Origin: Rhodothermales bacterium
GTDB taxonomy: Bacteria > Bacteroidota > Rhodothermia > Rhodothermales > JANQRZ01
Assembly: GCA_039944855.1 (NCBI GenBank)
Contig: JBDUXZ010000022.1
Coordinates: 1 to 64,000, forward strand
Reading direction: 5' to 3'
DNA length: 64,000 bases
In this document: positions 1 through 47,263 of the stretch, in pieces
Numbering within the stretch: position 1 is the stretch's first letter
Layout: each line of letters starts with the position of its first letter
The notes under the pieces: model-generated
Database searches by the model: none
The model's input: only the letters and a program-made list of their open reading frames with translations
Told to the model about the DNA's origin: nothing
Translations under genes and position numbers: made by a program

Positions 1-134
1 CTGGCGGAGACCTGAGAGATCTAGGAAGGTGGCGCTGCGCTCTTGGAGCCGCGTCGTGCCTTCGTACGACGCCGGACCCCGTACGCCTTTGTGAAATCGA
101 ACCGTGCCTCTTGACAAACCACCTTGTTATGGGG
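1..134. other. left edge, no gene seen
   Basis: No supported gene. The stretch begins just past the last recognisable cassette-end box of the left array (135-141). The sequence beyond that box does not match the other attC sites, so the array either ends here or the attC was cut by another event. Confidence 0.4.
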
Positions 135-157
135 GTTCTGCCGCCGGAGCTCCGGTA

Positions 158-718
158 CTACGGCCGGATCTGGAAGGGTGGCGTGAACAGCGTGTCCCGC
201 CTCGCTTGCCCAGACGCCGCTCGCTCCGGACGCCCGCTTCCGGCCACTTCCACCGGGCGCACCACGTCGGACAGCCGGTACGTCCCGGGTGGGAGCGCAT
301 CGCTCAGCCGTACCGCGTACCGCGCGGTGTTGCTCGCCTCCACCCGGTATGCGATGTCGGGGCAGAAGGGGATCGCTCCCACACGCCGATCCTCCTCGCT
401 GAGGTAGACGTACTCCTCCCGCACCGGCACCCACGCCGGCCCTTCCAGCCGCTCCAGCCGGGCCCCGCACAGGTTGTACTCCAAGGGCTCGGCTGCGAAC
501 AGGAGGAGCGCGAGGGAATCACCGGGGGCGTAAGCGCTCTCGTCGGTGGCGAGCGAGGTCTCTCGCGGAGTGGGCAGTGCGAGGTCTGCCGTGTCGGGAG
601 TGGGGGCCTCCTGCCTCGACGGCTCCCCGGAGGAGCGGGTTGCCGGAGGGGTTTCAGGCGGCCTTGCCTGGCAGGCAAGGCCGAAAGCGAAAGTGATTAG
701 GAGCGCAGCACGTAACAT
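158..718 (-). CDS. cassette-encoded lipoprotein (left cassette 6)
   Basis: A 186-residue exported lipoprotein of unknown role. The N-terminus MLRAALLITFAFGLAC is a short hydrophobic signal ending in a lipobox-like LAC. A Pro/Glu/Thr-rich linker follows (about 17-55), then a beta-rich domain with two Cys (near LCGARLERL and IPFCPDIAYRV) and a GTYRLSDVVRPVEV segment. Its layout resembles the lipoprotein at 2639-3130, which also has two Cys and a TYRLVWSV segment, so the two may be paralogues. The gene lies within a cassette bounded by GTTCTGC upstream and GCAGAAC downstream. Confidence 0.7.
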   Translation of the reverse strand: MLRAALLITFAFGLACQARPPETPPATRSSGEPSRQEAPTPDTADLALPTPRETSLATDESAYAPGDSLALLLFAAEPLEYNLCGARLERLEGPAWVPVREEYVYLSEEDRRVGAIPFCPDIAYRVEASNTARYAVRLSDALPPGTYRLSDVVRPVEVAGSGRPERAASGQARRDTLFTPPFQIRP

Positions 719-749
719 GAGGCCAGCAGGAACGGCAAGGTTCGAGGCG

Positions 750-871
750 GCAGAACAGGATAGCGTTCAGCCGCACCGGGCGGTAGAACCTGAACGGGGG
801 TAAAGTAGGCGCCGACGTCGAGACAGGCAAAGCCGTGGAGCCCGGTGTCGGCCTGGGACGCGGGGTTAGGC
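750..871 (-). repeat. attC-like site after left cassette 5
   Basis: Read on the minus strand it begins with R'' GCCTAAC and ends with R' GTTCTGC (the start of cassette 6). Inside are GCCGACACCGGG near the left arm and CCCGGTGCGG near the right arm, which can pair. The loop carries TTTG, 20 bases, then TACTTTAC, a possible promoter facing cassette 6. It belongs to the same subfamily as the sites at 3218-3340 and 8813-8935. Confidence 0.8.
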
Positions 872-891
872 AGAAGCGGGTGGCAGAGGCC

Positions 892-1275
892 TTAATCTTG
901 CTCAAGCTGAGCTGTCAAACGAACGGTCCGAGGACCGCAGTCGTCGCCACGGACTCGGACGCCTTCGCGTGTCCACGTCTGATAACCCTCCTTCTCCACT
1001 CTCACATCGTAGGTGCCGGTCCGCTCGTAAGCACCCCCTAACAGGAACTCTTGGTTGTCGGCGTTGATGCCAATGACGATGAGGGAATCGGAGTAAGCGC
1101 CTTCGGTCACGACGCCGGTCGCCCCTTCGGCAGCGGGCTCGCCCGTAGCGGCGTCGATCACTTCGACCTCTATGGCAGGCTCCGCTTCAGCCGTACAGTT
1201 GCCGGACTGGATCGCGTCACACCCCGCGCTGAGGAGCACAAACGCAAGCGGAAAGAGTGAGATGAGCGTACGCAT
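892..1275 (-). CDS. cassette-encoded lipoprotein (left cassette 5)
   Basis: A 127-residue lipoprotein. The signal peptide MRTLISLFPLAFVLLSAGC ends in a clear lipobox (LSAGC). The mature part (IEVEVIDAATGEPAAEGATGVV ... GTYDVRVEKEGYQTWTREGV) reads like a carboxypeptidase-regulatory or transthyretin-like beta-sandwich, a common module in Bacteroidota envelope proteins. Two further Cys (NCTAEAE and DDCGPRTV) could form a disulfide. The precise role is unknown. The gene sits alone in its cassette, between GTTAGGC and GCCTAAC. Confidence 0.75.
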   Translation of the reverse strand: MRTLISLFPLAFVLLSAGCDAIQSGNCTAEAEPAIEVEVIDAATGEPAAEGATGVVTEGAYSDSLIVIGINADNQEFLLGGAYERTGTYDVRVEKEGYQTWTREGVRVRGDDCGPRTVRLTAQLEQD

Positions 1276-1350
1276 GGCTTGGGGTAGCTATCGGAAGGCA
1301 GGACCGGCGAAGTGGGAGTATCTAGTCAAGGCACTCCGCTTGGCGCTTCT

Positions 1351-1471
1351 GCCTAACAGTGTGGCGCTTCACCCGCCGCAACACGGGACGGGCAGGCAGG
1401 GCAAAGTAGGCGGTGATGGTGAGGGACGCAAACGGGTCGAGGTGCGGTCGGCGTGGGAGGGCGGGTTAGCC
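1351..1471 (-). repeat. attC-like site after left cassette 4
   Basis: A 121-bp site. Read on the minus strand: R'' GGCTAAC, CCGCCC, inner arm CCGACCGCACC, loop, TTGCGGCGGGTGAAG, R' GTTAGGC. It is nearly the same as the sites at 8143-8263 and 9599-9719 in the right array, and of identical length. The loop has TTTG, 20 bases, then TACTTTGCC, a possible promoter for cassette 5. Confidence 0.88.
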
Positions 1472-1506
1472 GACACCCCAGCGCGGCCCCCCCCCGCCCC
1501 GCGCTC

Positions 1507-2061
1507 TCACCGGAGCGACGTGCGGAGCCCGACGCCGAGGGCGAGCCCGCTGAGCCCGTCCGGGCCTCCCGGCGAGACGCTGTGGGCGTAAGTCGCCGCT
1601 AGCCGGAGCCCGAGCCGGCCCGTCAGCACGGCCGTCAGCCCCACCTCCGGCCCCACGCCAAGGAACAGGCCCGTGCCGACGCAGGCGTCCCCGCCGTCGC
1701 AGTCCAACGCGTCCGTCGTGCCGGCCGCCACCGCAGCGCCGAGGTCGTAGCGCACGCGCGGGAGCAGCGCACCGCCGTAGCGGAGGGCGGCCGAACCTCG
1801 GACGAGGCGGTCGACGGAGGCGTCGAGGTGGCCGCTGGGCGTGTGCGTCTCGACTGACCGAAGGGCGGCGTCCACGCCGAAGTCGTACCCGAAGCCCGCA
1901 GCGCTGGCGCGCCCGGCGCGGACCCCGACCGTGGGCGTGGGCTCGCCGAGCACCCACGCTACGCCGGCGCTCGGCTCGACGAAGAAGCTAGCCGGGGCTT
2001 GGGCCGCTGCGGTCGGCAGGAGGGCCGCGAGAAGGGCCGCGCCGAGGAAGGCGGTGCGCAT
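1507..2061 (-). CDS. cassette-encoded outer-membrane beta-barrel-like protein (left cassette 4)
   Basis: A 184-residue protein with a signal peptide (MRTAFLGAALLAALLPTAAAQA, cut likely after AQA). Alternating hydrophobic/Gly-rich strands follow (FFVEPSAGVAWVLGE, VGVRAGRASAAGFGYDFGVDAALRSVE, RYGGALLPRVRYDLGAAVAAG, LGLRLAATYAHSVSP), ending in LALGVGLRTSLR. The pattern fits a small OmpA/OprF-type outer-membrane barrel of about eight strands. This is a family resemblance only; no substrate can be inferred. The cassette runs from GTTAGCC just upstream of the gene to GGCTAAC just downstream. Confidence 0.7.
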   Translation of the reverse strand: MRTAFLGAALLAALLPTAAAQAPASFFVEPSAGVAWVLGEPTPTVGVRAGRASAAGFGYDFGVDAALRSVETHTPSGHLDASVDRLVRGSAALRYGGALLPRVRYDLGAAVAAGTTDALDCDGGDACVGTGLFLGVGPEVGLTAVLTGRLGLRLAATYAHSVSPGGPDGLSGLALGVGLRTSLR

Positions 2062-2072
2062 GAGAGGGTGCT

Positions 2073-2203
2073 GGCTAACAGAGTTGCCGTTCAGCCGCCT
2101 TTGGCTGGCGGCACGGGGGATGTGACGAGCGATGATAGCGCGGGCCTCACACCGGAGCTGAGAACGCTCGCGACAAAGGTCGGCCTGCAGTGGCGGGTTC
2201 TAC
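2073..2203 (-). repeat. attC-like site after left cassette 3
   Basis: A 131-bp site, the longest in the window. On the minus strand R'' is GTAGAAC (its TAG is the stop codon of the gene) and R' is GTTAGCC. The left arm has CAGGCCGACC and the right end GGCGGCTGAACGGCAACTCT. It lacks the clear TTG-N20-TA promoter pattern of most other sites. Confidence 0.7.
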
Positions 2204-2487
2204 GGCGTCGCCTCGTCGATTCGGGATAGGAACCGCTCGACCCTCGCTATGAGCTCGTCCGGACCAAAGTAGACCGAGTGCTGGCTCCGCACGGTCGGGT
2301 CTGGCTCGTAGTAGTCGAGGTCCAAAGTCAAGTCGTCAAGGGCTGCTTGCACTGGCTCAGCGAGGCTCTGATACTCGGCCTCGTCGTTGAACTCGAGTTC
2401 CTCGGCCGCAGCCAGCGCAGGTCCGAGTCGCCTGGGGTCTCGCTGCGCGGCCCGGAGTAGTTCAACGACGTAGCCGAAGGATGGCAT
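2200..2487 (-). CDS. cassette-encoded hypothetical protein (left cassette 3)
   Basis: A 95-residue soluble acidic protein starting MPSFGYVVELLRAAQRD. I chose this ATG because a longer reading would begin with TTG inside the recombination box GTTCTAC. The sequence is mainly helical (LAAAEELEFNDEAEYQSLAEPVQAALDDLTLDLDYYEPDP), ending in ELIARVERFLSRIDEATP. It has no signal peptide, unlike most neighbouring cassette products. I do not recognise the family. The stop codon overlaps the R'' box of its attC. Confidence 0.6.
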   Translation of the reverse strand: MPSFGYVVELLRAAQRDPRRLGPALAAAEELEFNDEAEYQSLAEPVQAALDDLTLDLDYYEPDPTVRSQHSVYFGPDELIARVERFLSRIDEATP

Positions 2488-2502
2488 AGCGGTAGCAGCG
2501 CC

Positions 2503-2625
2503 GTAGAACAATTTGGCCGTTCAGCCGCCGACGCGGCGCAAACGGGTGAGCGAGCAACTTAGAGAGTGACGGTGAGGAAGGCAAGACCGTCGAGCGGCAG
2601 GTCGGCCTGCGACGGCGGGTTCTGC
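2503..2625 (-). repeat. attC-like site after left cassette 2
   Basis: A 123-bp site. On the minus strand R'' is GCAGAAC, followed by CCGCCGTCGCAGGCCGACC. The right end is GTCGGCGGCTGAACGGCC and R' is GTTCTAC. The loop has CTTG, 20 bases, then TAAGTTGC, a possible promoter toward cassette 3. Confidence 0.78.
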
Positions 2626-2638
2626 CGCCGGAGCCAAC

Positions 2639-3130
2639 TCAGTTGCCGTCCTCCACCGACAACTCGAACTCGTTCGAGATCGCTCGCCGACGGTCGCCTC
2701 GCTCCTCCACGCTCCAGACCAGACGGTACGTTCCCTCTACGCCATCCGCGTCCCACTCCGGAACGACGTTGCTGCCCGGGAGTCCGGCGCGTGGAGTGAA
2801 CTCGTAGCGGTACGTATCGCCTGGGGCGACCGGCGTCAGTGGCGATTGGCACAGGGCTACGACGGGGTTGTAGACGTTGACCCACTCCTCCCCGACCCGC
2901 TTCTCGATGGAAGGCGGCGCAGGGCCCCCACACCCGTGGAGGTACGCCGTGCGGCCGGATACGTTGACGTAGGTAAAGGCGAGCGAGAGCTCCACGATGC
3001 GGTCAGCGACGCGGGCGGTGTACGCTTCGGCGTCGGTCCGGATGCGGGCGGGGTCGGCGTCCCCAGCGGAGAAGGTGTCGCACGCGGCGAGGGGGAGGAG
3101 TAGAGCGAGGGTCAACAGGAGGCGCATCAT
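2639..3130 (-). CDS. cassette-encoded lipoprotein (left cassette 2)
   Basis: A 163-residue lipoprotein: signal MMRLLLTLALLLPLAAC with lipobox LAAC. Upstream in-frame codons lie in the attC/leader and give no plausible signal peptide, so the MM start (3130, or the second Met at 3127) is preferred. The mature part looks like an immunoglobulin-like beta-sandwich (AYLHGCGGPAPPSIEKRVG, EEWVNVYNPVVALCQSPL, GDTYRYEFTPRAG, GTYRLVWSVEERG) with paired Cys. It resembles the lipoprotein at 158-718 in layout. Function unknown. Confidence 0.75.
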   Translation of the reverse strand: MMRLLLTLALLLPLAACDTFSAGDADPARIRTDAEAYTARVADRIVELSLAFTYVNVSGRTAYLHGCGGPAPPSIEKRVGEEWVNVYNPVVALCQSPLTPVAPGDTYRYEFTPRAGLPGSNVVPEWDADGVEGTYRLVWSVEERGDRRRAISNEFELSVEDGN

Positions 3131-3217
3131 AGACGGAGCAGGAAGGTTTGGAGTCGGCCAGTAAGCTCTGGAACTGCTCATATGAGGGCAAGGCAGAAAG
3201 GCGTGACTGCGAAGGCG

Positions 3218-3340
3218 GCAGAACATGAGGCCGCTCACCCGCGCCGGGCAGCGCGACCGTTGACAGTGGCAAAGTAGACGCCGACGTTCAGACGAGCAAA
3301 ACCGTGGAGCCCGGTGTCGGCGTGCTGCGGCGGGTTATGA
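3218..3340 (-). repeat. attC-like site after left cassette 1
   Basis: A 123-bp site. On the minus strand: R'' TCATAAC (overlapping the gene's TAA), CCGCCGCAGCACGCCGACACCGGG, loop, GCCCGGCGCGGGTGAGCGG, R' GTTCTGC. The loop has TTTG, 20 bases, then TACTTTGCC, a possible promoter. R'' departs from the integron consensus RYYYAAC but is exactly complementary to its own cassette start GTTATGA at 4074-4080. Confidence 0.8.
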
Positions 3341-4063
3341 TGCCCGGCGGGCGATCACCATGCTGAACTCGTGCGAGTACCCGTCGATGCATGAGCCGTC
3401 GTACACCATGCGGCTGGAGACTCGGACCTCCACGTCGTAGCCCCCGAGCGTGCCCCGCTCCCCCTGTAAGAGGCGGATGCGCGAGCCGTCGTGCTCAACG
3501 ATAGCGCGGTATGCCGTTGCGGTACCGCACCCCACCTCGGCCTCACGCCCTGTATCTTCGAAGCGGAGCCCCCATCCGTCGGGGAGAAGCAGAACCTCGT
3601 CGAGCCCGGTTCCGGAATCGTCGGTGCCGGGGAGGGCGGCGACGCTCACGCCGTAGAAGGCGAGGCCTTCGTCGTCGCTCACCCGGAGGGCGGTAGGATT
3701 GGGGAAGACGAGGCCGTAGAAGATGGCGTCGGCCTCAAACCGGTAGCGCTGGCCGACATCGAGGGGAAGTTCCGCCGCGCTCACGCCGACGTTGACGAGG
3801 TGGAGGGCGTGGTCGGGGAGGTCAAGGGCAACGAACCGGGTGAGTCCCTCGCCGAATCCATAGGAGGAGTCGGCCTTGGCGACGACTTCGGCTTCCATTT
3901 CCCACCCGCACTCGGGATCACATATGAAGCTGGGGCGGGCCGAGAAGAAGAAGTTTTGCTCGGCCCTTGGGTAGGGTTCGTCGCCGAAAACAGAGCACGA
4001 GGAGAGGACAGTGGCTGAAAGCAACAAGCCGATGACGCAGAAGATGCTCTTCATGTGGCGCAT
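3335..4063 (-). CDS. cassette-encoded lipoprotein (left cassette 1)
   Basis: A 242-residue lipoprotein in the leader-proximal position of the left array. The signal is MRHMKSIFCVIGLLLSATVLSSC (lipobox LSSC). The mature protein is beta-rich and acidic, with a Cys pair early (FICDPECGWEMEAEVV) and another later (EVGCGTATAYRAIVEH ... DGSCIDGYSH). I do not recognise the family. It starts 11 bases inside the cassette border, so transcription from the leader promoter (4227-4255) would reach it first. Confidence 0.7.
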   Translation of the reverse strand: MRHMKSIFCVIGLLLSATVLSSCSVFGDEPYPRAEQNFFFSARPSFICDPECGWEMEAEVVAKADSSYGFGEGLTRFVALDLPDHALHLVNVGVSAAELPLDVGQRYRFEADAIFYGLVFPNPTALRVSDDEGLAFYGVSVAALPGTDDSGTGLDEVLLLPDGWGLRFEDTGREAEVGCGTATAYRAIVEHDGSRIRLLQGERGTLGGYDVEVRVSSRMVYDGSCIDGYSHEFSMVIARRAS

Positions 4064-4079
4064 TGGGAGTGCATCATAA

Positions 4080-4303
4080 CCCCTGCTTAGGTGCCCTGTG
4101 GGCGTGTTGTAACGCGCCCTCTGGCCGCATAAGCAACACGGGGAGGCTACGGGGAGCGGCGGTCCGTGTCTTACGAGGTACGCCCCGGAGGGCCACCTAC
4201 GCCGCTATAGGGCCGCCTTGCGCCGACAAGATAAGCGCCCGGGCCCGGATCGCAACCCGCCCGCGCCCTGCGCAAATGCGCCCGCCGGCCGCATAAGCGA
4301 CAC
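4080..4303 (-). repeat. left copy of 224-bp leader / attI-like element
   Basis: Its reverse complement aligns end to end without gaps to 7401-7624; a hand count gives about 24 differences in 224. It ends at the G of GTTATGA, exactly where the left array begins. It contains two related 26-bp segments starting GTGTYGCTTATGCGGCC (positions 4278-4303 and about 4113-4139). These resemble the direct integrase-binding repeats of attI sites by arrangement, not by sequence. It also holds a promoter candidate and arms CGTGTTG...CAACACG. Its role as an insertion site is inference. Confidence 0.75.
4227..4255 (-). promoter_or_regulatory. promoter candidate in left leader
   Basis: On the minus strand TTG, 19 bases, then TATCTTG. 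This approximates the Bacteroidota pattern TTTG / TAnnTTTG and is conserved at the same place in the other leader (7449-7477). It would transcribe into left cassette 1. Confidence 0.5.
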
Positions 4304-4805
4304 GCTCGATCGCGTGATCGAGCGCGCGCCCGATCTCAACCGCCAACAACCTCGCCCTGGACCCATGGAGCCGGCCGCCGCCATCGTCGGAGATCCCGTC
4401 CGAGACGTCGTCGAAGAGCCTCGAGAGCCGTGCGCCGTCGGAGGCCGAGCCAAAGGGAGGGCCCACGAAGTCGCTCGACCGGCTCCGCCTTACCGGCTCC
4501 GCCTTACCGGCTCGTCCCTGATCCTACCGCACGGAGCAGACTTACTCGGGGGCTACAGGGGGGAGCGAACCGTGTACAATTTACACGGAGCAGCGGCGGG
4601 GTGCGATCTGCAACCTACTCCGGGCCGCTACAAGATCCCGCCGCCGTCCTGCTCGCCGGACATAGCTGGGGTCCGTTGCACGAGGGGTAGATGGTGCTCA
4701 AAGCACATCGCTTGGTCGATCGACGTCCTACGAGGTTCTTCCTGGCGTTCAGTTTATACCCGGTACTAGAGCCCTTTCTATCAAAGGGATGCGCCCTTCA
4801 AGGTT
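4304..4805. other. intergenic stretch between left leader and recombinase
   Basis: No gene supported. It holds tandem repeats of ACCGGCTCCGCCTT (4478-4491, 4492-4505, partial to 4514) and a 19-base inverted repeat CCGTGTACAATTTACACGG (4570-4588, 7-base arms) that could be an operator or a weak hairpin. Just past the recombinase stop, AAGGG/CCCTT arms make a weak hairpin. Confidence 0.5.
4570..4588. promoter_or_regulatory. 19-bp inverted repeat
   Basis: CCGTGTA and TACACGG arms flank CAATT. Symmetric, AT-centred and isolated in a gene-free stretch, so a protein-binding site is possible. Nothing ties it to a particular regulator. Confidence 0.3.
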
Positions 4806-5924
4806 TTAATCGTACGGCACGTCGAGGCGGGAGGCCGCCTGCTCCTTCGCCCGCTCCCCGCGCCGGTCGTACCCCGCCGTCGTCGTCGGGCTCGCGTGGC
4901 CGGCGAGCTGTTGCGCCACGGAGAGGTCGGCCCCCTCGTCGAGGAGGTCGCCGACGTAGCTCCGCCGGAGGTCGTGGGGGCTGAAGGCGGCGACGCCGGC
5001 CTCGGCCGCCCGCGTCCGGAGCACGTGGTAGACCGCCTGCCCCGTGAGGGCGTCGGCCGCTCGGTCGAGCGCGCCCCCCCGCCTGGCGCGCACGAACAGG
5101 GGGAGGTCGCCGTGGGGGGAATCCGCAGCCCCCGACACCTTATATATAGGCGAGGGGGGAGGGGTGCCTCCCGCAGCGGCCGTCGCTACCCCCTCGTCGT
5201 CCGTCGTCGCGTCGCCCCCGGCGCTCTGCAGCCGTACGTCCAGGTAGTCCCGGAGCGCGTGGAACGCCCCCGGCGGGATCGGCACGACGCGCTCCTTGTT
5301 CCCCTTCCCGCGCACGAGCACGCGCCGCTGTGCGAGGTCGAGGTCGCCGACGGCGAGTCCGGCGAGCTCCTCCCGCCGGAGCCCGCACCCGTACCCGAGC
5401 GCGACGAGGGCGGCGTCCCGCCGCCCCTTCGCTGTCACGACCGCCGGCGCACCCTTCCTCGGCGGGGTAGGACGGAGGCACGCCTCGATGAGGGCGCGGA
5501 GCTCGGCCCGCGCGAGGGAGCGCCCCGTCGCCTGGCTCGCCCGCTGGCCCTTCACCGCGCGTACGGCCGCGGCGCGGTGGTAATGGTCGGTCTCCATGAG
5601 CCCGAGCTCCCACGCCTCGCGGAGCACGCCGCGGAGCGCCGAGAGCATCTTGTTCACGGTGGAGTACTTGTAGCGCTCGGCGAGCGCGGCGCGGATGGCC
5701 TTCGCGTGCTCGGCCCGGAGCCGCTCCCACGGGAACGCCTCGGGCTCCGGGGGCGGATCGGCGTCGGGCACGCAGACCGAGGCGATGGTTCGGAGCGCGC
5801 CGCGCATGGTGCGGCGGCTCCCCGGCGCGAGGCGGGCGAGGTAGACCGTGGCGGGGTCAGGGCCGCGGCGGCGCTCGACCTCGATAGTGAGGGCGGCGGA
5901 GTTGGCAGGGGTGAGTTCGTTCAT
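4806..5924 (-). CDS. tyrosine recombinase (XerC/phage-integrase type) between the two arrays
   Basis: A 372-residue site-specific recombinase. The N-terminal part (about 20-125) fits a SAM-like core-binding domain. The catalytic domain has all expected residues: R183 (GCGLRREEL), K207 (GKGNK), H317 and R320 (SPHDLRR), H343 (LAGHAS) and nucleophile Y352 (GYDRR). An unusual linker of about 40 residues rich in Gly/Ala/Pro/Asp (about 233-272) separates the beta-hairpin Lys region from the rest. I do not see the extra motif between the Arg and HxxR boxes that marks integron integrases (IntI). It lies between two inverted leaders and two divergent cassette arrays, so it may act on them; that is inference. 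The ATG is preceded within 3 bp by a palindrome and has no obvious ribosome site. Confidence 0.88.
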   Translation of the reverse strand: MNELTPANSAALTIEVERRRGPDPATVYLARLAPGSRRTMRGALRTIASVCVPDADPPPEPEAFPWERLRAEHAKAIRAALAERYKYSTVNKMLSALRGVLREAWELGLMETDHYHRAAAVRAVKGQRASQATGRSLARAELRALIEACLRPTPPRKGAPAVVTAKGRRDAALVALGYGCGLRREELAGLAVGDLDLAQRRVLVRGKGNKERVVPIPPGAFHALRDYLDVRLQSAGGDATTDDEGVATAAAGGTPPPSPIYKVSGAADSPHGDLPLFVRARRGGALDRAADALTGQAVYHVLRTRAAEAGVAAFSPHDLRRSYVGDLLDEGADLSVAQQLAGHASPTTTAGYDRRGERAKEQAASRLDVPYD

Positions 5925-6618
5925 TCCGTTATTGCATAACGTTCGTCCTCTTCACATCGATGACACACGGGAGACTCGGTCTGCGGCGACATCGGGTGAG
6001 GTGAAGGTACAACTGCTGAGAAGGTTCATTCTCATACATTATAATGACCCCGATCGGACCGCTCTCCAGGACGCCCTCGAACCCCAAGACCCCGCCGAAT
6101 CGAGCCCACTCCAGCGGGCTCCTCACGTCGCCCCCGCGTCGGCCCCGCCCTCTCCGGGCTCGCCTTCCCGGGCTCGCCCCGGGGGACCACGACGACATCC
6201 TCGGCGCGATGCGCCGGGCCTCCGACCGCGAGCGCCTCCGGAAGGAGCTGCGCTCATCGTCGCGTTCGCTGGCGACTCGTTTCACGGAGCGTGCGGACTC
6301 GCAACGCGATCTCGGCCGACTCGCATCATCGCCGGGGGGAAGCGCAAGCGCCGGGCGTAGACTCGGCCATCGTGACGACGCGGTACGGCATCGGGCGTCG
6401 TCGCAGGCTCGACGGCAGCGCTGTCGCCGTAGCCCTCTCTACCCGTGCGCTTAGCTCCCGCTCGTTGCGCCATACCCCAGTCCCTCCTCGCGCTGCCCGT
6501 CGCGATCCTCTTTATTGCGACGGGATGCCGGACCGCGGTGCCCGGCGGCATGGCCCGTTACTCCGAGCGCGCTCCACGCGTCTCTACCGGTGACCTGCGC
6601 GCCCACCGTTCCCATCCT
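5925..6618. other. intergenic stretch upstream of the recombinase
   Basis: No convincing gene. Readable frames here are Arg/Ser/Pro-rich and look like GC-driven noise. An AT-rich spot with the 10-base palindrome CATTATAATG lies at 6037-6046. GTTGCGC at 6465-6471 could be a worn cassette-start box for the next gene, since the box after that gene is GCACAAC (6 of 7 complementary). Confidence 0.45.
5927..5941. promoter_or_regulatory. palindrome at the recombinase start
   Basis: CGTTATTGCATAACG: 6-base arms around TGC, starting 3 bp upstream of the recombinase ATG. The position suits an autoregulatory operator or translation-start cover. No matching regulator is identified. Confidence 0.35.
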
Positions 6619-7137
6619 ATGAACGCCCGCTCTCTTTCCCTCATCGCTACCGCCACGCTGTTCGCCATGAGCGGCTGTGCGCTCTTCGAAGAGGAGCGTG
6701 GGGCTATCGCTGAGGGGGACTACCGCGCCGCGGCCTCGTGGCGGACGCTCGGAGACAGCCTCTTCGACCCGGCGTACTCCAGTCGGTTCGAGGGGCACAC
6801 GCTGCGCTTCACCGACCCCGACGAGTTCGAAATCCGAACCGGCGACACGTCCGGGAGCGGCCGAGCCTCCGGGAACTACGTGGCGGGATTCGACGCGGGC
6901 GGGTCCTTCGTGGAGCTCCGCGTGGAGGAGTCCTCGTCGGGGTTCTACCCCGTGGGAGATCGGATGCACCTCAACTACGAGGTGGTCGAGGAGCTTCCGG
7001 CGACCGTGGGACACGTCCAGATTGAAGAGCGCGGGGTCGTGCTCTGGGACGGCGGCGCCGCTGATGTGCAGGACGCGGACGGGGACGGCGATGAGTACGA
7101 GCGGTTCTTCTCCTGGTACCAGTTCGTACGGGAGTGA
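6619..7137 (+). CDS. lipoprotein, probable relic cassette gene
   Basis: A 172-residue lipoprotein: MNARSLSLIATATLFAMSGC ends in lipobox MSGC. The mature part is acidic and beta-rich, with RFEGHTLRFTDPDEFEI and YEVVEELPATVGHVQIEERG. It ends in an Asp-rich stretch (DVQDADGDGDEYER) that could bind calcium. Function unknown. It lies outside the right array, between the recombinase and the right leader, and is followed by a degraded attC-like site. It may be a cassette stranded upstream of the attI-like element. I chose the start because it gives the signal peptide. Confidence 0.65.
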   Translation: MNARSLSLIATATLFAMSGCALFEEERGAIAEGDYRAAASWRTLGDSLFDPAYSSRFEGHTLRFTDPDEFEIRTGDTSGSGRASGNYVAGFDAGGSFVELRVEESSSGFYPVGDRMHLNYEVVEELPATVGHVQIEERGVVLWDGGAADVQDADGDGDEYERFFSWYQFVRE

Positions 7138-7143
7138 TCCGGG

Positions 7144-7313
7144 CGGCACAACCCAGTGGTGCAGTCCGACCCCACGCTGCAAGGCTCGTACGCATCGGCG
7201 TCTATTTAGCCTCGCCTCTCCCCCGCTCCATACCAGGGTGGAGGGCATCGCTCTTCGCCGGCCAAACACCGAGAAGGGCCGCGGGCCGATCCGCGCAGAT
7301 CTGTACGTTAGCC
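7144..7313 (+). repeat. degenerate attC-like site
   Basis: GCACAAC, then GTCCGACCCCACGCTGCAAGG and CGGCGTCTATTTAGCC, match the left half and loop of the other attC sites (compare GGCGTCTACTTTGCC at 3218-3340). The right arm CCCGGYGCGG is missing. GTTAGCC at 7307-7313 is a possible end, but the length would then be unusually long. Confidence 0.4.
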
Positions 7314-7400
7314 GGTCGCGGCCGACTCCGCAGACAAAGACGACTCCTCCCGTCCCGATCGGGCTCCGAATCCGGCTCCGAATCGGGCGCCCACTCAGGT

Positions 7401-7624
7401 GTGTCGCTTATGCCGCCGGTGGGCGCAATTGCGCAGGGCGCGGGCGGGTTGCGATCCGGGTCCGGGCGCTTATCTTGTCGGCGCAAGGCGGCCCTGTCGC
7501 GGCGCAGGAGGCCCTCCGGGCTGCTCCTCATTAGACACAGGCCACCGCTCCCCGTAACCTCCTCGTGTTGCTTATGCGGCCAGAGGGCGCGATACAACAC
7601 GCCCGAAGGGCACCTAATCAGTGG
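7401..7624 (+). repeat. right copy of 224-bp leader / attI-like element
   Basis: An inverted copy of 4080-4303, same length, about 89% identical by hand alignment. It ends at the G of GTTGGGC (7624-7630), the first base of the right array. Two 26-bp direct segments, GTGTCGCTTATGCCGCC... (7401-7426) and GTGTTGCTTATGCGGCC... (7565-7591), lie inside. A promoter candidate lies between them. Confidence 0.75.
7449..7477 (+). promoter_or_regulatory. promoter candidate in right leader
   Basis: TTG, 19 bases, TATCTTG, identical in elements and spacing to the left leader. It points into the right array. Confidence 0.5.
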
Positions 7625-7649
7625 TTGGGCCGCCTCTACACATCTCGCT

Positions 7650-8117
7650 ATGCCTGCGCGCCTCCTTGTCATCGCAGCGCTCGCTCTCACTCTCGCAGCC
7701 TGCGATGCGAGCCCGGGCGACTCCGGCATCTGCCTCATCGACGCTACCGACGAAGGCCGCTTCCGTGGGCGGGTCGTCGCCCCTAGCTACGGCGACACCC
7801 TCCGCCTCGGTCAGCCGTTCGCGTTCCGAGCGGAGATCGACGCCGACTCGAACGTGACGGAGATCGGCGCGCTCCTCCTCACCTCCGCCCGGGACTCGCT
7901 CGGCCGTCCCGACTTGGACACCCTCTTCAGTCGACGCCTCACGACGGAGACCGGTCGCTACACCCTGGAGCGGACGGTCGTGATCGACACCCTCAGCAGC
8001 CCCCTTCCCACGGACGGCCGTCTCGTGAGCCTCGGCGTCTACGGCGTGGCCAGGTTCGGCGACTGCGGGGGAGCCGAATCGCGCTCGGCTACGTTCGTCG
8101 GCGTGGTGGTCGAGTGA
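7650..8117 (+). CDS. cassette-encoded lipoprotein (right cassette 1)
   Basis: A 155-residue lipoprotein with signal MPARLLVIAALALTLAAC (lipobox LAAC). The mature domain is beta-rich (FRGRVVAPSYGDTLRLGQ, PFAFRAEIDADSNVTEIG, TGRYTLERTVVIDTL, LVSLGVYGVARFGDCGG), suggesting an immunoglobulin-like sandwich. No known family recognised. It is the leader-proximal gene of the right array, starting 25 bp after the GTT border. Confidence 0.72.
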   Translation: MPARLLVIAALALTLAACDASPGDSGICLIDATDEGRFRGRVVAPSYGDTLRLGQPFAFRAEIDADSNVTEIGALLLTSARDSLGRPDLDTLFSRRLTTETGRYTLERTVVIDTLSSPLPTDGRLVSLGVYGVARFGDCGGAESRSATFVGVVVE

Positions 8118-8142
8118 TGAGGCGGACGGGGTCTCCACGGCG

Positions 8143-8263
8143 GCCCAACCCGCCCTCGCACGCCGACCGCACCTTCACCCGCTTGCCTCCCCTAGCGTGA
8201 CCACCTACTTTGCCCTGCCTGCCCGTCGCGTGGTGCGGCGGGTGAAGGGCAACTCCGTTGGGC
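8143..8263 (+). repeat. attC-like site after right cassette 1
   Basis: A 121-bp site with classical boxes: R'' GCCCAAC and R' GTTGGGC both fit the integron consensus RYYYAAC/GTTRRRY. Arms CCGCACC and GGTGCGG pair. The loop has CTTG, 20 bases, TACTTTGCC, a promoter candidate for cassette 2. Confidence 0.9.
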
Positions 8264-8337
8264 AGAAACTCCTGCCTTGCGAACCACCGTCTCCCTTCAG
8301 CTATTTGTGCGCCCTACTACGACGGACGTGAACCGAA

Positions 8338-8796
8338 ATGAGAACCCTCGCCGCCCTCTCCCTGCTCCTCACGCTCCCGGCCTGTAGTCTCCTCGGCTTG
8401 GACGACGAGGTGCCCTTCACGAACGTCCCGCAAGCGGAGTGGCTGCGGCTTCCGGAAGCAGGCACGGCCGTGTTCAACGATGCCGCGTCCTGGGAGGCTT
8501 TCTGGTACGACCACACTAGCGCGTCCGATAGCGAAGGCAACCCCATCCCACCTCCCGAGATCGACTTCGCCGACAAGACCGCCGCGGCCGCATTCCTCGG
8601 CGGTGGCATGAGCGGGTGTTCGAACCTCGCCCGCCTCGTACGCTCTGTTTCGCTCGACGACGATACCGCCGTGGTGCGAGTGGGGCGACTGGAAGTGGAG
8701 GGAGGGGTGACCTGCGACATGCTCATCTCTCCGGTACACGTGGTCACGTTCGAGAAGGCCGCAGCGGTGAGGTTCGTGGGCGAGGTTCCGAGGTAA
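8338..8796 (+). CDS. cassette-encoded lipoprotein (right cassette 2)
   Basis: A 152-residue lipoprotein, signal MRTLAALSLLLTLPAC (lipobox LPAC). The mature part has a W-rich stretch (AASWEAFWYDHTS), PPEIDFADKTAAAAFLGGG, then MSGCSNLARLVRSVSLDD and a Cys-containing TCDMLISPVHVVTFEK. The order loosely recalls small PrcB-like lipoproteins, but this is a weak resemblance. It sits alone in its cassette. A further TTG...TATTTGTG promoter-like match lies between the border and the ATG. Confidence 0.7.
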   Translation: MRTLAALSLLLTLPACSLLGLDDEVPFTNVPQAEWLRLPEAGTAVFNDAASWEAFWYDHTSASDSEGNPIPPPEIDFADKTAAAAFLGGGMSGCSNLARLVRSVSLDDDTAVVRVGRLEVEGGVTCDMLISPVHVVTFEKAAAVRFVGEVPR

Positions 8797-8812
8797 GGCC
8801 CCGCCGGTTTCT

Positions 8813-8935
8813 ACCCAACCCGCGCTCGCAACCGATGCCGGGCTCCACCGCCTTGCCACTTTCCATCGGTAGCGCCTACGTTGCCCCTTCCAAACGCTCT
8901 GCCGCCCGGCGCGGGTGAGCGGCCTCATGTTAGAC
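8813..8935 (+). repeat. attC-like site after right cassette 2
   Basis: A 123-bp site: R'' ACCCAAC, GATGCCGGGCTCCACC, loop, GCCCGGCGCGGGTGAGCGG, R' GTTAGAC. Same subfamily as 3218-3340 in the left array. The loop has CTTG, 21 bases, TACGTTGCC. Confidence 0.85.
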
Positions 8936-8941
8936 TTCCAT

Positions 8942-9604
8942 ATGCCCACCGTGTCCAAGTTCATCCTCCCGATCCTCCTCTCGGCCGTGTTGCTCGGGTG
9001 TGACTACTTCGACAGCGATGCGGAAGTCCCAGCTGTGATCGCCGCGTTCGTCGCCGGACACGACCTCCCCGATCCCCAGCCGGTCCGCGTCTTCGATCTG
9101 GCCGCCGGTGACGGCGAAGACATCGACCTCTTCACCGTCTCCTACGGCCCCCCGATGGATTGCCCAAGCGGGTGTTTCTACGCGACGGCTCACGGTCTCC
9201 GACGAGGGGAGGCGGTGGGATGGCTGGTGCCGGACCTCCCGGGACGGAGTCCGTTCGTCGCGTACGACTTCGGGGAGGCCGACGCCGCTCTCTACACCGC
9301 CGAGCTCTTCGCGCGCTTCGAAGCGGTGGATGCGTGGGCGTACCGCTACGCGTTCCTCCCGGTGCTGGCCCGCGATCCTGACGTCCCCCGCGACGTGCTC
9401 TCGCGCGTCGCCCGGGGGCTCTACGACTACATCCACTCCGGCCTCGGGTGGGCCCTGCTGGAGAACGAAGCCGTCGTCGCCGACGAAGGGCTGCTCACCC
9501 TCCTCGCGGAACTACCCGTCTTCGACGACGGGTACGACCCTTACGCCACCGTGCGCGAACGAGCGCGGGAGCTCTTGGAGGCGCTGGACGGTGGGGAAGT
9601 CTAA
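8942..9604 (+). CDS. cassette-encoded lipoprotein (right cassette 3)
   Basis: A 220-residue lipoprotein, signal MPTVSKFILPILLSAVLLGC (lipobox LLGC). The mature protein is acidic. The first half includes DLFTVSYGPPMDCPSGCFYA with a close Cys pair. The second half is helical (ALYTAELFARFEAVDAWAYRYAFL, VRERARELLEALDGG). I chose the Met at 8942 because an upstream start would lie inside the attC. The stop codon overlaps the R'' box. Function unknown. Confidence 0.72.
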   Translation: MPTVSKFILPILLSAVLLGCDYFDSDAEVPAVIAAFVAGHDLPDPQPVRVFDLAAGDGEDIDLFTVSYGPPMDCPSGCFYATAHGLRRGEAVGWLVPDLPGRSPFVAYDFGEADAALYTAELFARFEAVDAWAYRYAFLPVLARDPDVPRDVLSRVARGLYDYIHSGLGWALLENEAVVADEGLLTLLAELPVFDDGYDPYATVRERARELLEALDGGEV

Positions 9605-9719
9605 CCCGCCCTCGCACGTCGACCGCACCTTCACCCGTTTGCGTCCCTCACCGCCGCCATCTACCTTCCCTTGCCCGCTCGTCGCGTGGTGCGGCGGGTG
9701 AAGGGCAACTCTGTTGGGC
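9599..9719 (+). repeat. attC-like site after right cassette 3
   Basis: A 121-bp site: R'' GTCTAAC, CCGCCCTCGCACG, arm CCGCACC, loop, GGTGCGGCGGGTGAAGGG, R' GTTGGGC. A near-copy of 8143-8263. The loop has TTTG, 20 bases, TACCTTCC. Confidence 0.9.
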
Positions 9720-9785
9720 GGCTTAAGAAGGCACCTCGCTCCGGCGATCCTCTCACGAGGTTACTCCTCCCCCGCCCCAGTGATC

Positions 9786-10286
9786 ATGTCGGACGAACTC
9801 CTCGCTTCGATCATCGTCGGCCTCGGTGCGATCGCGCTCGGCCTCCTCGCTTGGTTCCTCCCCTACCGCTGGAACCTCTTCCGCCTTAAGGCCGGGGTCG
9901 CCAAGCTATTCTCTGAGCGTGTCAACCGCGCCATCCCGAAGGGGATAGGCGCCCTGCTCATCGCCTTCGGTGTGGTCATGGTCGGTGCCGCTCTATTCTG
10001 GGAGGTACCCCTCGGCGCGCCTCCCCCGGATGCCATCCCGGAAGAGCGCGCGGCTAGGCTGGCTGGGCCCTCGGAGGCGGAATCTACAGGCCGGGGGTTG
10101 CTCATCTTCCTGCTTGCCTCAGGCCTCGGCCTCTCTGGGTGGCTCCGCCCTTACGAGCGGAACCCGTTCCGACTGCGCCCCTCTCTCTCGCGCCGTCTCC
10201 CTGAGCGGTGGAACCGCATCATGCCAAAGGTATTCGGCACCATCTTCATAGGCGCTGGGGTCTACGCGCTCTTTGGAGGGGCTTAG
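9786..10286 (+). CDS. cassette-encoded membrane protein with internal duplication (right cassette 4)
   Basis: A 166-residue integral membrane protein. Two similar halves, each a hydrophobic helix, a basic PYRWNLFRLK / PYERNPFRLR segment, then an amphipathic ERVNRAIPKGIGALLIAFG / ERWNRIMPKVFGTIFIGAG helix. This gives four membrane segments in a 2+2 arrangement. The repeat is clear by eye; the function is unknown. The cassette ends match over ten bases (GTTGGGCGGC and its complement), the longest match in the window. Confidence 0.72.
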   Translation: MSDELLASIIVGLGAIALGLLAWFLPYRWNLFRLKAGVAKLFSERVNRAIPKGIGALLIAFGVVMVGAALFWEVPLGAPPPDAIPEERAARLAGPSEAESTGRGLLIFLLASGLGLSGWLRPYERNPFRLRPSLSRRLPERWNRIMPKVFGTIFIGAGVYALFGGA

Positions 10287-10323
10287 GAGATCCACGCGAC
10301 AAGCGCGTCCCACGTAGCGAGCC

Positions 10324-10416
10324 GCCCAACCCGCAGTCGCAGCCGACGCCGGGCTGCAAGGTTTTGCTCGCCAAACGGCCGCATGCCCGGTGCGGCTGAA
10401 CTGCCAAATGTACCGC
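10324..10416 (+). repeat. shortened attC-like site at the right array end
   Basis: R'' GCCCAAC, CCGCAGTCGCAGCCGACGCCGGG and the right arm CCCGGTGCGGCTGAAC match the other sites. About 30 bp of the loop, including the TA element of the promoter pattern, are missing. The end box is GTACCGC instead of GTTNNNN. Probably a decayed site. Confidence 0.6.
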
Positions 10417-10426
10417 GATCCAGCGT

Positions 10427-10756
10427 ATGAGGCGATACCACCACCTCGGCATCCCAACCGACACGCCCCGTCCGGGCGAGGTCTACATCCCGCACCTGAA
10501 GATGTACGCCTCCGGGTTCGAGGCGAGCGAGTACGGGATCGAGTGGATCCGCTTCGACGACGACGCGGACTTCCCGGACCTCGTCAAGAGGGTCCCCCAC
10601 GTGGCGTTCGAGGTCGACGACCTGGACGCGGCGCTCGCAGGCAAGCGCGTCATCATCGAGCCGAACAGCCCGTCTCCCGGCGTCTTCGTCGCGTTCATCG
10701 AAGAGGGCGGGGCGCCCATCGAGTTCCTTCAGATCGACCGCTCGGTCGCAACGTAG
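10427..10756 (+). CDS. VOC (glyoxalase-fold) family protein
   Basis: A 109-residue protein of the vicinal-oxygen-chelate fold. It starts MRRYHHLGIPT, with a metal-ligand type His, has VPHVAFEVDDLDAALAG in the middle (second His) and ends GAPIEFLQI, with the usual terminal Glu. Such proteins act on small molecules through a bound metal, or bind drugs; the substrate is unknown. It follows directly on the shortened attC. GCGGTAG just after its stop is nearly the complement of GTACCGC before it, so it may be a fifth cassette whose attC has been lost. Confidence 0.7.
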   Translation: MRRYHHLGIPTDTPRPGEVYIPHLKMYASGFEASEYGIEWIRFDDDADFPDLVKRVPHVAFEVDDLDAALAGKRVIIEPNSPSPGVFVAFIEEGGAPIEFLQIDRSVAT

Positions 10757-10863
10757 GGGGCGGTAGGATGCGTAACGTTTCTGGCCGGGCGGATCGGTGA
10801 CACCACCTGATGCCCCTCGGCCTTAGCAGGCCCGTTCGACCACAACCCAAGCCCCGGTGTGCG

Positions 10864-12459
10864 ATGAGTAGCGGCGGACGTCTCCTCACCTTAGCGGTCG
10901 CGGCCGGCGGCCTTGCCGTGCTGGTTCTCGTACTCGGATTCCCTGGGATCCACTTGGCGCTCCGCCCATCCCACCCGGGACCGGCCTACGACGTCGCTAC
11001 GGTTCCCGGTCCGTCGAGCTCAGAGCCCCTATCGTTCACCGTCGCGGCCTCGGACGAGGGAGCTCTCTACCTCGCGTGGGACCAGGACGAGGGACTCCGC
11101 TTCACCCGTCGGGCGAGGGAGGGGGCGGACTGGTCCGCTCCCCAGACGCTACAGGGCGATGGCGTCCCCACGCTCTTCGCCGACGGGGACCGGGTCGTCC
11201 TCTTCGTCCGGGGCGAAGGGCTCGAACGCCGGGTCAGCGAGGACGGCGGCGCGACGTGGTCCGAGCCCGCCTACGCCTTCGGCCGCGATGCCTTCGGCCG
11301 CGCCACCGTAAGCCGCGATCCCGGAAGCCGCGACGTCGTGAGCCGCGACACCGCCGCGAGCTACCCCGGGGAGGTCCGGGTGAGCGGGAGGCCCTCGCAG
11401 GGCGTACCCTACATCTACCTCGGGGACCGGTCCACCCTCCACAGGGGCAGCGGGGGCGACGTGTACCTCGTGTACCTCCACCAAGAGTCGTACGTGACCG
11501 ACGGGGGGAGCACCCTCGTGGAGCCGCCGCACCGGATCTACTTCTCCCACAGCGACGACCTGGGGGAGCGGTGGACGCCCCCGGTCGCCGTGGCCGACAC
11601 CGAGGGGAGGCTCGGGTCCGCCCCCTCGGTCGTGGACTTCCACGGCGCGCTCGTCCTGTGCTGGAGCGAGCGCTACCGACGGGGCGACCTGCTCCGGGTC
11701 GCGACGAGCCTCGACGGGGGGGCCACGTGGTCGGAGCCGATCACGCTCAACACGGACGCCTACGTCCTCGCCGAGCAGCAGCGAAGCGCGGTCCTGGTAA
11801 CAGCCCCCCGCTTGGTGCGGAGCGGCCACGACCTCTACCTATGCTACGGCGGGCGCGGCCTCCAGTGCCTGGAAGCACGGGGAGTTGAGCGGGCGCTCGG
11901 TGGGGCCTCGGTGCCGGGTCAGGCCTGGTCCCCCGCTTTCACCCTCACCGGTTCGACGCCGCTCGCCTTCGACTTCCTCTCCGCTCCGGGCGCTCCCAGT
12001 CCGGCCCCTGCACATCGACCGCCCCCCAGCCCCCTCTCACACGGCCGGCCGGAACCGGCGGACGCTCCCGAGGCACCCCTCGCGCTCTGGGTGGACCAGC
12101 GGCATCAGGAGGTGGAGTGGTGGGGGTACTCCTTCGCCTTGACGCTCTTCAAGGGCGGCAACCCGAGGTGGGCGAACAACGACCTGATCGTGGCCCGCCT
12201 GGGCGAGGAGGGGAGCGCGGAAGAGCGCGTGCTCACGCCCCACCTCTCGTACACCCGCGGGAGCATCGGCGCCGTCCAGGCGCAGGGGCGGTGGCACGTG
12301 TTCTGGAGCGGTAAGGAGCGCGTGGACCGAAATGGGGGCGACGGTCGACATCGCACGGACAGCGCCGGGGTCAGTCATCCCTACCGCATGGGCCGGACCG
12401 AGGGCGGCATCCCCTACCGCGTCTTCTATACGTCGGTACCGCTCGAGCTCTCCGAGTAG
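10864..12459 (+). CDS. membrane-anchored sialidase-fold (BNR/Asp-box) protein
   Basis: A 531-residue protein beginning MSSGGRLLTLAVAAGG with one transmembrane or uncleaved signal segment (about 7-30). At least three Asp-box motifs follow: VSEDGGATWSEP, HSDDLGERWTPP and SLDGGATWSEP, the mark of six-bladed sialidase propellers. The family includes exo-sialidases and carbohydrate-binding propellers. I cannot confirm the catalytic Arg triad, so activity on sialic acid is uncertain. Near residue 145 a low-complexity insertion repeats GRDAFGRATVSRDPGSRDVVSRD. It lies between the cassette array and a decayed region. A start 18 codons upstream is possible but less likely. Confidence 0.72.
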   Translation: MSSGGRLLTLAVAAGGLAVLVLVLGFPGIHLALRPSHPGPAYDVATVPGPSSSEPLSFTVAASDEGALYLAWDQDEGLRFTRRAREGADWSAPQTLQGDGVPTLFADGDRVVLFVRGEGLERRVSEDGGATWSEPAYAFGRDAFGRATVSRDPGSRDVVSRDTAASYPGEVRVSGRPSQGVPYIYLGDRSTLHRGSGGDVYLVYLHQESYVTDGGSTLVEPPHRIYFSHSDDLGERWTPPVAVADTEGRLGSAPSVVDFHGALVLCWSERYRRGDLLRVATSLDGGATWSEPITLNTDAYVLAEQQRSAVLVTAPRLVRSGHDLYLCYGGRGLQCLEARGVERALGGASVPGQAWSPAFTLTGSTPLAFDFLSAPGAPSPAPAHRPPPSPLSHGRPEPADAPEAPLALWVDQRHQEVEWWGYSFALTLFKGGNPRWANNDLIVARLGEEGSAEERVLTPHLSYTRGSIGAVQAQGRWHVFWSGKERVDRNGGDGRHRTDSAGVSHPYRMGRTEGGIPYRVFYTSVPLELSE

Positions 12460-12488
12460 CCCTCAGGAGCTACCGTCGATCCGATAGC

Positions 12489-12518
12489 GCGCTCGTCTGC
12501 ACGGCGCTCGTCTGCACG
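12489..12518. repeat. tandem 15-bp repeat
   Basis: GCGCTCGTCTGCACG occurs twice in a row after the sialidase-fold gene. No known role; it may be replication slippage. Confidence 0.6.
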
Positions 12519-12683
12519 AGGTGGGGCGGGGTGCCGCGGTCGTATTGAAGAGGCGGTTTCAGTCACCCGCCGGGCTGGTTCATCACGAGCCGTGTTCGAC
12601 CCACCCGTTGTTCACAGTTCGTACTAGGTCTGCTATTGCATGTTGCTTGCGACAGCGTTCCTCAGCGGCGGAACCAGCTGTCG

Positions 12684-13066
12684 CTAAAGCCTACCCAGCA
12701 CTGCGTCGGAGATCTTCTGGTCTCTCGGCTTGTCGATGAGGTGGCGGTAGGCCATATCACAGGCTCCCAGTTTCTCCGTGATGTCAACGCCTACTGCCTC
12801 TCGGAGGTAGAGGAGCTGTCTCCTGACTGCTTGGATGACGTCCTCATGGAGGAACTCCGGAACGGCGTGCCATGTGGGCCGGCCTGCGTGGTTGGGCTGG
12901 CCGGGATGGCCAAAAGCTCCGTTCCAGCGGATTCCGAGGTCGGGATAGGAATAAGGGGAGTCGCGATCCCGTAAGCGGAACCGAATACCACAGAGGAATC
13001 GCCATCGTCGTACAGGACTTTTCCCACAACCCAGTTCTTGGGCCGGACTTCATGTGCGGTTGGCAT
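12684..13066 (-). pseudogene. frameshifted hypothetical protein
   Basis: Reading from the ATG at 13066 gives MPTAHEVRPKNWVVGKVLYD ... SSVVFGSAYG. Around 12970 the sense continues in another frame: DSPYSYPDLGIRWNGAFGHP, then RPTWHAVPEFLHEDVIQAV, ending ...ISDAVLGRL and a TAG at 12684. Both halves look like ordinary protein (W/Y/D-rich, no low complexity), and the join needs a single-base change. It appears to be a broken gene of about 127 codons from an uncharacterised family. A sequencing error is the alternative. Confidence 0.65.
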
Positions 13067-13339
13067 AATGGTATACTGTTGGGTTTAGGTGAATGTAGTA
13101 CGATGCGCCTGGTGCAGAGGGGAAGCCAGGGCGTACCGAGGCTGTGCCCCTTTTACCATCCTAGACCCGCCACCAGGCAGCGGGTTAAGTGGGTGACACG
13201 TAGTCTTCCTGTCAATGCCTTTCATGTCGTCGTCCCACACGATCCGACTGAGGGGCGAGCCGGGGTGGCCAGCTACCTTGATCCCCCTGTGATAGCGGGG
13301 ACCTCAAAGGGTTTAGTGTCCCGACTCATCCATACTGAT

Positions 13340-13360
13340 GGACCGGCCACTGGCCGGTCC
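13340..13360. repeat. hairpin, 9-bp perfect arms
   Basis: GGACCGGCC and GGCCGGTCC flank ACT. No T-run follows on either strand, so it is not a standard terminator. It may be a cruciform or protein-binding site. Confidence 0.5.
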
Positions 13361-13455
13361 GTTAGCCCTTTCATCCGCACACGGCCCGAGCCGGAGGCCG
13401 GGCCAACCCACGTGGAGTCGACCGATGTCGTCCTACTACCATCTATATAGATATC

Positions 13456-13563
13456 CCTGATGATGCACCGAAGCGTCGGCCACCGCGCTGCTATCTCGCC
13501 CACGAGGTCGATCTCGCTCATGCCTGGGAGCGAGACGTCGATGAGAAGGAGGTTGGCCGCTCT
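13456..13563 (-). pseudogene. response-regulator receiver fragment
   Basis: A 36-residue stretch RAANLLLIDVSLPGMSEIDL... ends ARWPTLRCII. It matches the phospho-acceptor region of receiver domains: hydrophobic strand, D at LLLIDVSLPG as the acceptor, then the SLPGMS turn and helix 3. What precedes and follows does not look like a receiver or output domain. This is a relic of a two-component regulator. Confidence 0.6.
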
Positions 13564-13590
13564 CCCTATGCAGGGCGTGTCATAAACGGC

Positions 13591-13611
13591 CCCCGTGGCA
13601 CACCCACGGGG
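13591..13611. repeat. hairpin, 8-bp perfect arms
   Basis: CCCCGTGG and CCACGGGG flank CACAC. It lies just upstream, on the minus strand, of the receiver fragment. No T-run. Confidence 0.45.
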
Positions 13612-13885
13612 ACTCCGTCTCAATCGCGTCATCCGGGTCATCTGCGCTGGCATGGTCGTACCAGAACCCGTCCCGCTATCTACGTCCCGGTAACCCCGGC
13701 CGCCTCGGCTTCCGGGAAACCCGTTGGACCCCGTCCCACTGGGGCGCGCAGCCGGCTAAGGGTCAGGGGCAAGGAGCAACGCACGTGTATCGGCGTGGCA
13801 TCGGTCGTATTCCCTGTGAAGGAGACCGCCCAGGGCCGAGCGACGGCGCATGCCACGGATCACCGTCGAGACGATCTACCCTGTG

Positions 13886-14112
13886 TTATCCACGAATACG
13901 AACCCCATCACGTCCCGAATAGCAGCCCCATCATCGAATACGGACCCCATCAGCCTGTATGTATGGGGTCCGCCGCTGCGCTGAATACGGACCCCATCAC
14001 CTTATAACTATAGAGTCCCAACCCCCGCTCCGGCCGGCGAATACGAGCCCCACCATCCTGTAATACCCATCCTCTAATCCTCCTGTAACAGGCTCGCCCC
14101 CGTTGTGGATAA
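13886..14112. other. iteron-like repeats with DnaA boxes, candidate replication origin
   Basis: The 17-mer GAATACGGACCCCATCA occurs exactly or nearly so at 13894-13910, 13917-13933, 13936-13952, 13983-13999 and 14039-14055, all in the same orientation, with a partial inverted copy at 13960-13972. It is flanked by TTATCCACG (13886-13894, one mismatch to the DnaA box) and a perfect DnaA box TTATCCACA on the minus strand (14104-14112). Repeats plus DnaA boxes are the layout of iteron plasmid origins. No initiator gene is seen next to it, and repeat spacing is irregular, so the origin call is tentative. Confidence 0.5.
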
Positions 14113-43068: not shown

Positions 43069-43085
43069 GAGGCTTCGGCCTCTTT
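43069..43085 (+). terminator. UUCG-loop hairpin, terminator-like
   Basis: GAGGC-TTCG-GCCTC followed by TTTG, 70 bp after the preceding stop and just before the DUF932 leader. Short stem; may attenuate rather than end transcription. Confidence 0.45.
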
Positions 43086-43119
43086 GCTCTCATCATCACC
43101 AGTATGGAGGTGCAACACC

Positions 43120-46154: not shown

Positions 46155-46160
46155 GGCTCG

Positions 46161-46601: not shown

Positions 46602-46818
46602 CGGAATGCTGTTGGGTTCGGTGATGGTACGGCCATTTGCACAACGGGTTTCGGCAAGTGGCACAACGATCTAAAGCGCGAAGTTGCCCGCGGGTCGCTC
46701 GGGCAGAATCCGGCAGGACGGCGGCACAGATGGCGGGATCGCGTCAGGCACCCGTTGGACGCGAAGCGCAAGGTCCAGTATCGTGCTTCCGGTTCTGGAT
46801 AAGTGGATTCAGCAAGCA
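46602..46818. other. intergenic region upstream of mobC: TA promoter and possible oriT
   Basis: Near the antitoxin start are two GCACAAC direct repeats, 21 bp apart. Nearer to mobC is GTTCTGGATAAGTGG (46792-46806); GGATAAGTG resembles the nick regions of Q/P-type mobilisation origins. oriT commonly lies next to mobC, but no good inverted repeat was found, so this is tentative. Confidence 0.3.
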
Positions 46819-47247: not shown

Positions 47248-47263
47248 ACGCGGAGGCGAGGCG

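Follow-up and report, generated by a model that had tools for sequence, protein, structure and literature searches.

The window analysed here (G000:C22:1-64000) covers the initial 64 kb of a contig of 162 kb from the draft genome of a Rhodothermales bacterium (41 contigs, 4.6 Mb, 97.9% complete); the contig starts within the left of two cassette arrays. An intact gene for a Xer-like tyrosine recombinase (4806-5924, minus strand, ATG start, 372 aa) lies between two inverted 226-bp attI-like leaders that are 89% identical to each other. The left leader (4078-4303, minus strand) heads a left cassette array and the right leader (7401-7626, plus strand) heads a right one. The core between them also holds a small lipoprotein-like gene (6619-7137, plus strand). 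No attC site was called after this gene by our covariance model, R1, but the segment on its 3' side (7138-7200) resembles the 5' half of such a site (CACAACCCAGTGGTGCAGTCCGACC). Genes of the left cassettes (158-4063, minus strand; 186, 127, 184, 103, about 163-199, and 242 aa) and of the right cassettes (7650-10286, plus strand; 155, 152, 220, and 166 aa) are read outward from the centre. Two of the left ones were examined, with no confident Pfam family found.

The repeats around the recombinase are of attC type, with the layout AACCCG...CCGAC / GCGG-TGA...GTT and compensatory changes in 7 of 15 predicted pairs. An Rfam search gave no useful match. Model R1, trained on 13 sites (eight from the window and five from elsewhere in the genome), detected 30 sites genome-wide, including nine in the window. 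Five are on the minus strand: 747-870 (114.9 bits), 1348-1470 (95.8 bits), 2070-2202 (77.8 bits, with a degenerate R'), 2500-2624 (106.2 bits), and 3215-3339 (132.9 bits). Those on the plus strand are 8144-8266 (96.5 bits), 8814-8935 (92.7 bits), 9600-9722 (95.5 bits), and a short site from outside the training set, 10325-10419 (64.1 bits).

When IntI was compared by tblastn with positions 1-14000 in search of an intI remnant in the core, only the Xer-like gene was significant, the other matches being weak (E of 0.03 and above). With nine attC sites and no adjacent intI, the locus falls under the definition of a CALIN, a cluster of attC sites lacking integron integrase (PMC9024848, PMC12444791); a functional IntI can act in trans to mobilise such clusters (PMC12444791). 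As in a CALIN, the arrays lack an adjacent intI while the genome encodes one elsewhere. They differ in being headed by two head-to-head attI-like leaders, similar leaders occurring at two to four more places. Further along the window, a mobilisation region (45657-49162) encodes a MobA/VirD2-type relaxase, a NikA-like protein, and an Xre/RES toxin-antitoxin pair, and a DUF932 gene (43084-44208) lies near it.

Catalytic core and class of the recombinase

The initial annotation had listed six catalytic residues of a tyrosine recombinase (R183, K207, H317, R320, H343, and Y352). Each was found at its position, and all are identical in the six close homologues that were aligned. The protein matches the Phage_integrase family of Pfam (1.2e-26), and dN/dS values of 0.17-0.24 against six homologues, about 0.2 overall, point to purifying selection on the coding sequence. 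A long disordered linker, also claimed in that annotation, corresponds to a low-complexity stretch at about residues 233-275; it is about 12-22 residues shorter in close homologues, so its length is a trait of the window copy alone. A structure prediction by AlphaFold with seven sequences had a pLDDT of 53.

The protein has the broad features of a Xer-like tyrosine recombinase, namely the R-K-H-R-H-Y residues and the Phage_integrase domain. It shares the catalytic core with integron integrases, but its score against the integron integrase model TIGR02249 (52.9 bits) is far under the cut-off of 265, and profile positions about 185-239 have no counterpart in it. Pairwise alignment with the genome's own IntI agreed with the earlier statement that the IntI-specific segment is absent, as the segment between the catalytic boxes of that IntI (RKYPNAATEWGWRYVFP) is missing from the window protein. 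The best NCBIfam models were of XerC/XerD types, every one of them scoring under its cut-off (TIGR02224, 113.8 bits against 335; TIGR02225, 107.3 bits against 330), which places the protein outside the XerC/XerD orthologues. The closest sequence with a solved structure is XerD (1a0p, 1e-17). In a small tree, with a long branch on one row, the protein clustered with plasmid recombinases, away from IntI.

The upstream core site and plasmid relatives

Close homologues with 79-80% identity are present elsewhere in the order Rhodothermales, and their similarity to the window is confined to the gene and about 100 bp on its 5' side. This upstream segment contains a conserved 28-bp site, ACTTATGAGAA-N6-TTCTCAGAAGT or near variants. 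In the window it is a dif-like core of 11-6-11 architecture, ATGTATGAGAA-TGAACC-TTCTCAGCAGT (6012-6039, minus strand), which precedes the recombinase ATG by about 90-115 bp. Symmetry extends over 7 of the 11 arm positions and is perfect in the inner six, the window copy being the most degenerate and least symmetrical of the close-homologue set. A pattern search of eight genomes found the exact site once per intact gene copy and nowhere else; with two mismatches allowed, and same sites read on the reverse strand left out of the count, one extra match appeared in the source genome (contig C30) and one in another genome (G020, contig C36). Single palindromes were mostly not significant against shuffled sequences. 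What supports a core site is therefore its conservation and its position, and an autoregulatory operator would have much the same appearance.

A matrix built from the close sites was applied to 11 plasmids carrying distant relatives of the recombinase. In four of them (L068, L071, L072, and L078) its top match lay 30-163 bp upstream of the gene; the top match found there in L074 was weak. For a fifth plasmid the distance upstream was 622 bp. By a rough calculation, with about 5% expected per plasmid, the chance of at least four in 11 is about 2 in 1000. A similar AGAA-N6-TTCTC core was seen upstream of several distant plasmid recombinases from other phyla (L068-L078); on a Trichormus plasmid, ACTTATGAGAATTACATTTCTGATAAGT lies 30 bp upstream of the gene.

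The window site has the 11-bp arms and 6-bp centre of dif. Single-recombinase Xer systems include XerS/difSL, XerH/difH, and archaeal XerA/dif, along with plasmid resolution sites such as cer, and the xerS gene adjoins its site difSL (PMC5357621). The window resembles XerS/difSL in combining a single Xer-like recombinase with an inverted-repeat core adjoining its gene, but the centre of difSL is 11 bp long and that of the window core 6 bp. By the NCBIfam cut-offs, moreover, the protein is not an orthologue of XerS, XerC, or XerD, and its type is plasmid-associated, unlike the chromosomal single-recombinase systems.

Initiator genes of three families (Rep3, RepA_C, and RPA) were found near three homologue copies. 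Relatives of the recombinase occur on 548 plasmid records, nearly all with less than 60% identity and mostly 36-39% among the matches listed, and in several of these rep or par genes are close to the recombinase. Neither phage records nor a scan of viral contigs contained a relative. The window contig itself showed no terminal overlap. With the three initiators as queries it showed no rep gene either, and much of the 64-kb window looks chromosomal, which counts against the plasmid reading; the recombinase would here be stranded away from a plasmid.

Some homologues share a contig with an intI. In G050, a 72-kb contig with Rep3 (C13; L037 1-14000) has an intI open at its start and attC at the opposite end, which gives it the appearance of a circular plasmid opened inside its integron. 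The window-type recombinase of this contig stands tail to tail with intI, whose 3' end is 234 bp away. The two genes are about 14 kb apart on contig C68 of G046 and about 93 kb apart on contig C10 of G045. The G046 contig also carries a truncated window-type recombinase consisting of the C-terminal part only (L042 10316-10630). The recombinase and the integron may thus often travel on one replicon and yet not form one system.

The integron integrase and the interpretation of the locus

A profile search of the whole genome revealed a true IntI on another contig (C5:74605-75585; TIGR02249, 425 bits against the cut-off of 265). Beyond it come a cassette gene and attC sites of the window type (116.6 and 35.3 bits). 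The initial annotation had called the window protein the only recombinase in the system, which is correct for the locus and fails for the genome. It had also offered two explanations: either a distinct recombinase family had taken over attC-like sites, or IntI lay elsewhere and the gene was a bystander. The C5 intI, its matching attC sites, and the related attI favour the latter; an intI beside similar attC sites is the very finding that the annotation had set against a takeover.

IntI scored above the cut-off in all eight genomes examined, and attC arrays adjoin intI in relatives, for example in G047 (C1:213-223k, with intI at 223.7k). In two genomes of the same family as the source (G001 and G002), IntI and this attC type are present and the window-type recombinase was not found. 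Four genomes from another family of the order contain IntI, attC arrays, and window-type recombinases; in the stretches around the recombinases of the homologue regions L035 and L037-L042, no attC site was detected by R1. The same-family intI of G001 has an in-frame TGA (L016; G001:C2:38046-38993) and may be decaying, yet this type of attC site persists a few kb from it.

We consider it about 80% probable that 4806-5924 encodes a plasmid-type Xer-like dimer-resolution recombinase that acts on its own dif-like site and lies between two attI-headed, integrase-less arrays, which the C5 IntI can serve in trans. The sequence comparisons behind this reading are the true IntI, the common attC type, the kinship of leaders and attI, the separation of recombinase and attC among relatives, the conserved upstream site, and the rep neighbours of several homologues. 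The most likely substrate of the recombinase is its own upstream core of two 11-bp arms and a 6-bp centre, where it would resolve replicon dimers; it would not move cassettes. The locus would then be two attI-like leaders placed back to back, each with an outward-facing attC array, and the enzyme encoded on C5 would be able to recombine both arrays in trans. The recombinase gene probably arrived by plasmid and now lies between the arrays.

An integrase of an integrated plasmid, ICE, or IME, with the 28-bp site as attachment site and with the core or the mobilisable region at 45-49 kb as part of the element, is the more plausible of the competing explanations, although still improbable. A tyrosine recombinase adjoining a core-like site would fit it, as would the relaxase, the NikA-like gene, and the Xre/RES pair that the same contig carries at 45.6-49.2 kb. 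The site, however, is single in the window and has one exact match in the genome, so that no attL/attR pair is seen; relatives are missing from phages and viral contigs, and three homologues have rep genes nearby.

That the recombinase moves cassettes, having taken over attC or attI recombination, might be suggested by its location between both arrays and leaders and by the one homologue adjoining an intI. This explanation was discarded, since among relatives each of the two, recombinase and attC, occurs without the other: the gene is missing from genomes with these attC sites, and R1 finds no attC in the stretches around its homologues. The genome, besides, encodes a true IntI accompanied by matching attC sites and a related attI, and the window protein lacks the IntI-specific segment and has a conserved dif-like site of its own; we regard a takeover as highly unlikely. 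Just as little credence is given to the recombinase gene being captured cassette cargo. It does lie inside an integron locus, and any gene can ride in cassettes, but R1 finds no attC directly 3' of its stop codon, both leaders have the gene on their attI-proximal side, which does not receive cassettes, and its close homologues are located outside attC arrays. A plasmid-type resolution recombinase beside arrays served by the C5 IntI thus remains the preferred reading. The likely cassette-moving enzyme is thereby settled, and the claim of a non-IntI integron is removed. A group of plasmid-borne Xer-like recombinases with core sites linked to their genes also takes shape; it is seen in this order and, less clearly, among plasmids from several other phyla.

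Dispersed attI-like leaders

Outside the window the 226-bp leader occurs again on C5 at 322k and in part on C25 at 46.6k, and its 3' part, including that of the left window copy, has a relative in the stretch that precedes the C5 intI. Most of the aligned leaders agree up to ..CCTAA-CAGGGG-TT and then diverge from place to place, the pattern expected of attI after different first cassettes at G^TT. Among the seven leaders aligned, those of C20 and C37 match weakly, and the GTT is not kept in C5b and C20. The attI-like leaders noted, namely the two of the window and those in L021 (6215-6440), L022 (about 8555-8625), L067 (about 2603-2641), and L061 (about 3450-3495), are dispersed in the genome without an adjoining intI. 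Leaders on C5 and C20 follow a purF-like gene and the end of an smc-like gene, respectively, and begin within tens of bases of the stop codon of that chromosomal gene.

With somewhat less than even confidence, we propose that one IntI serves in trans a set of scattered, attI-headed, integrase-less arrays. These would comprise the window leaders, C5:322k, C25:46.6k, and perhaps the shorter ones at C20:396.6k and C37:93.4k; in the window two such arrays would meet head to head, with a plasmid-type Xer gene between them. Little has been described of attI sites beyond class 1 integrons (PMC9024848), so the dispersed leaders would bear on the origin of integrase-less arrays. We judge these leaders more interesting than the recombinase; if the proposal is true, integron insertion sites would be spread over the genome of this bacterium and not limited to one platform.
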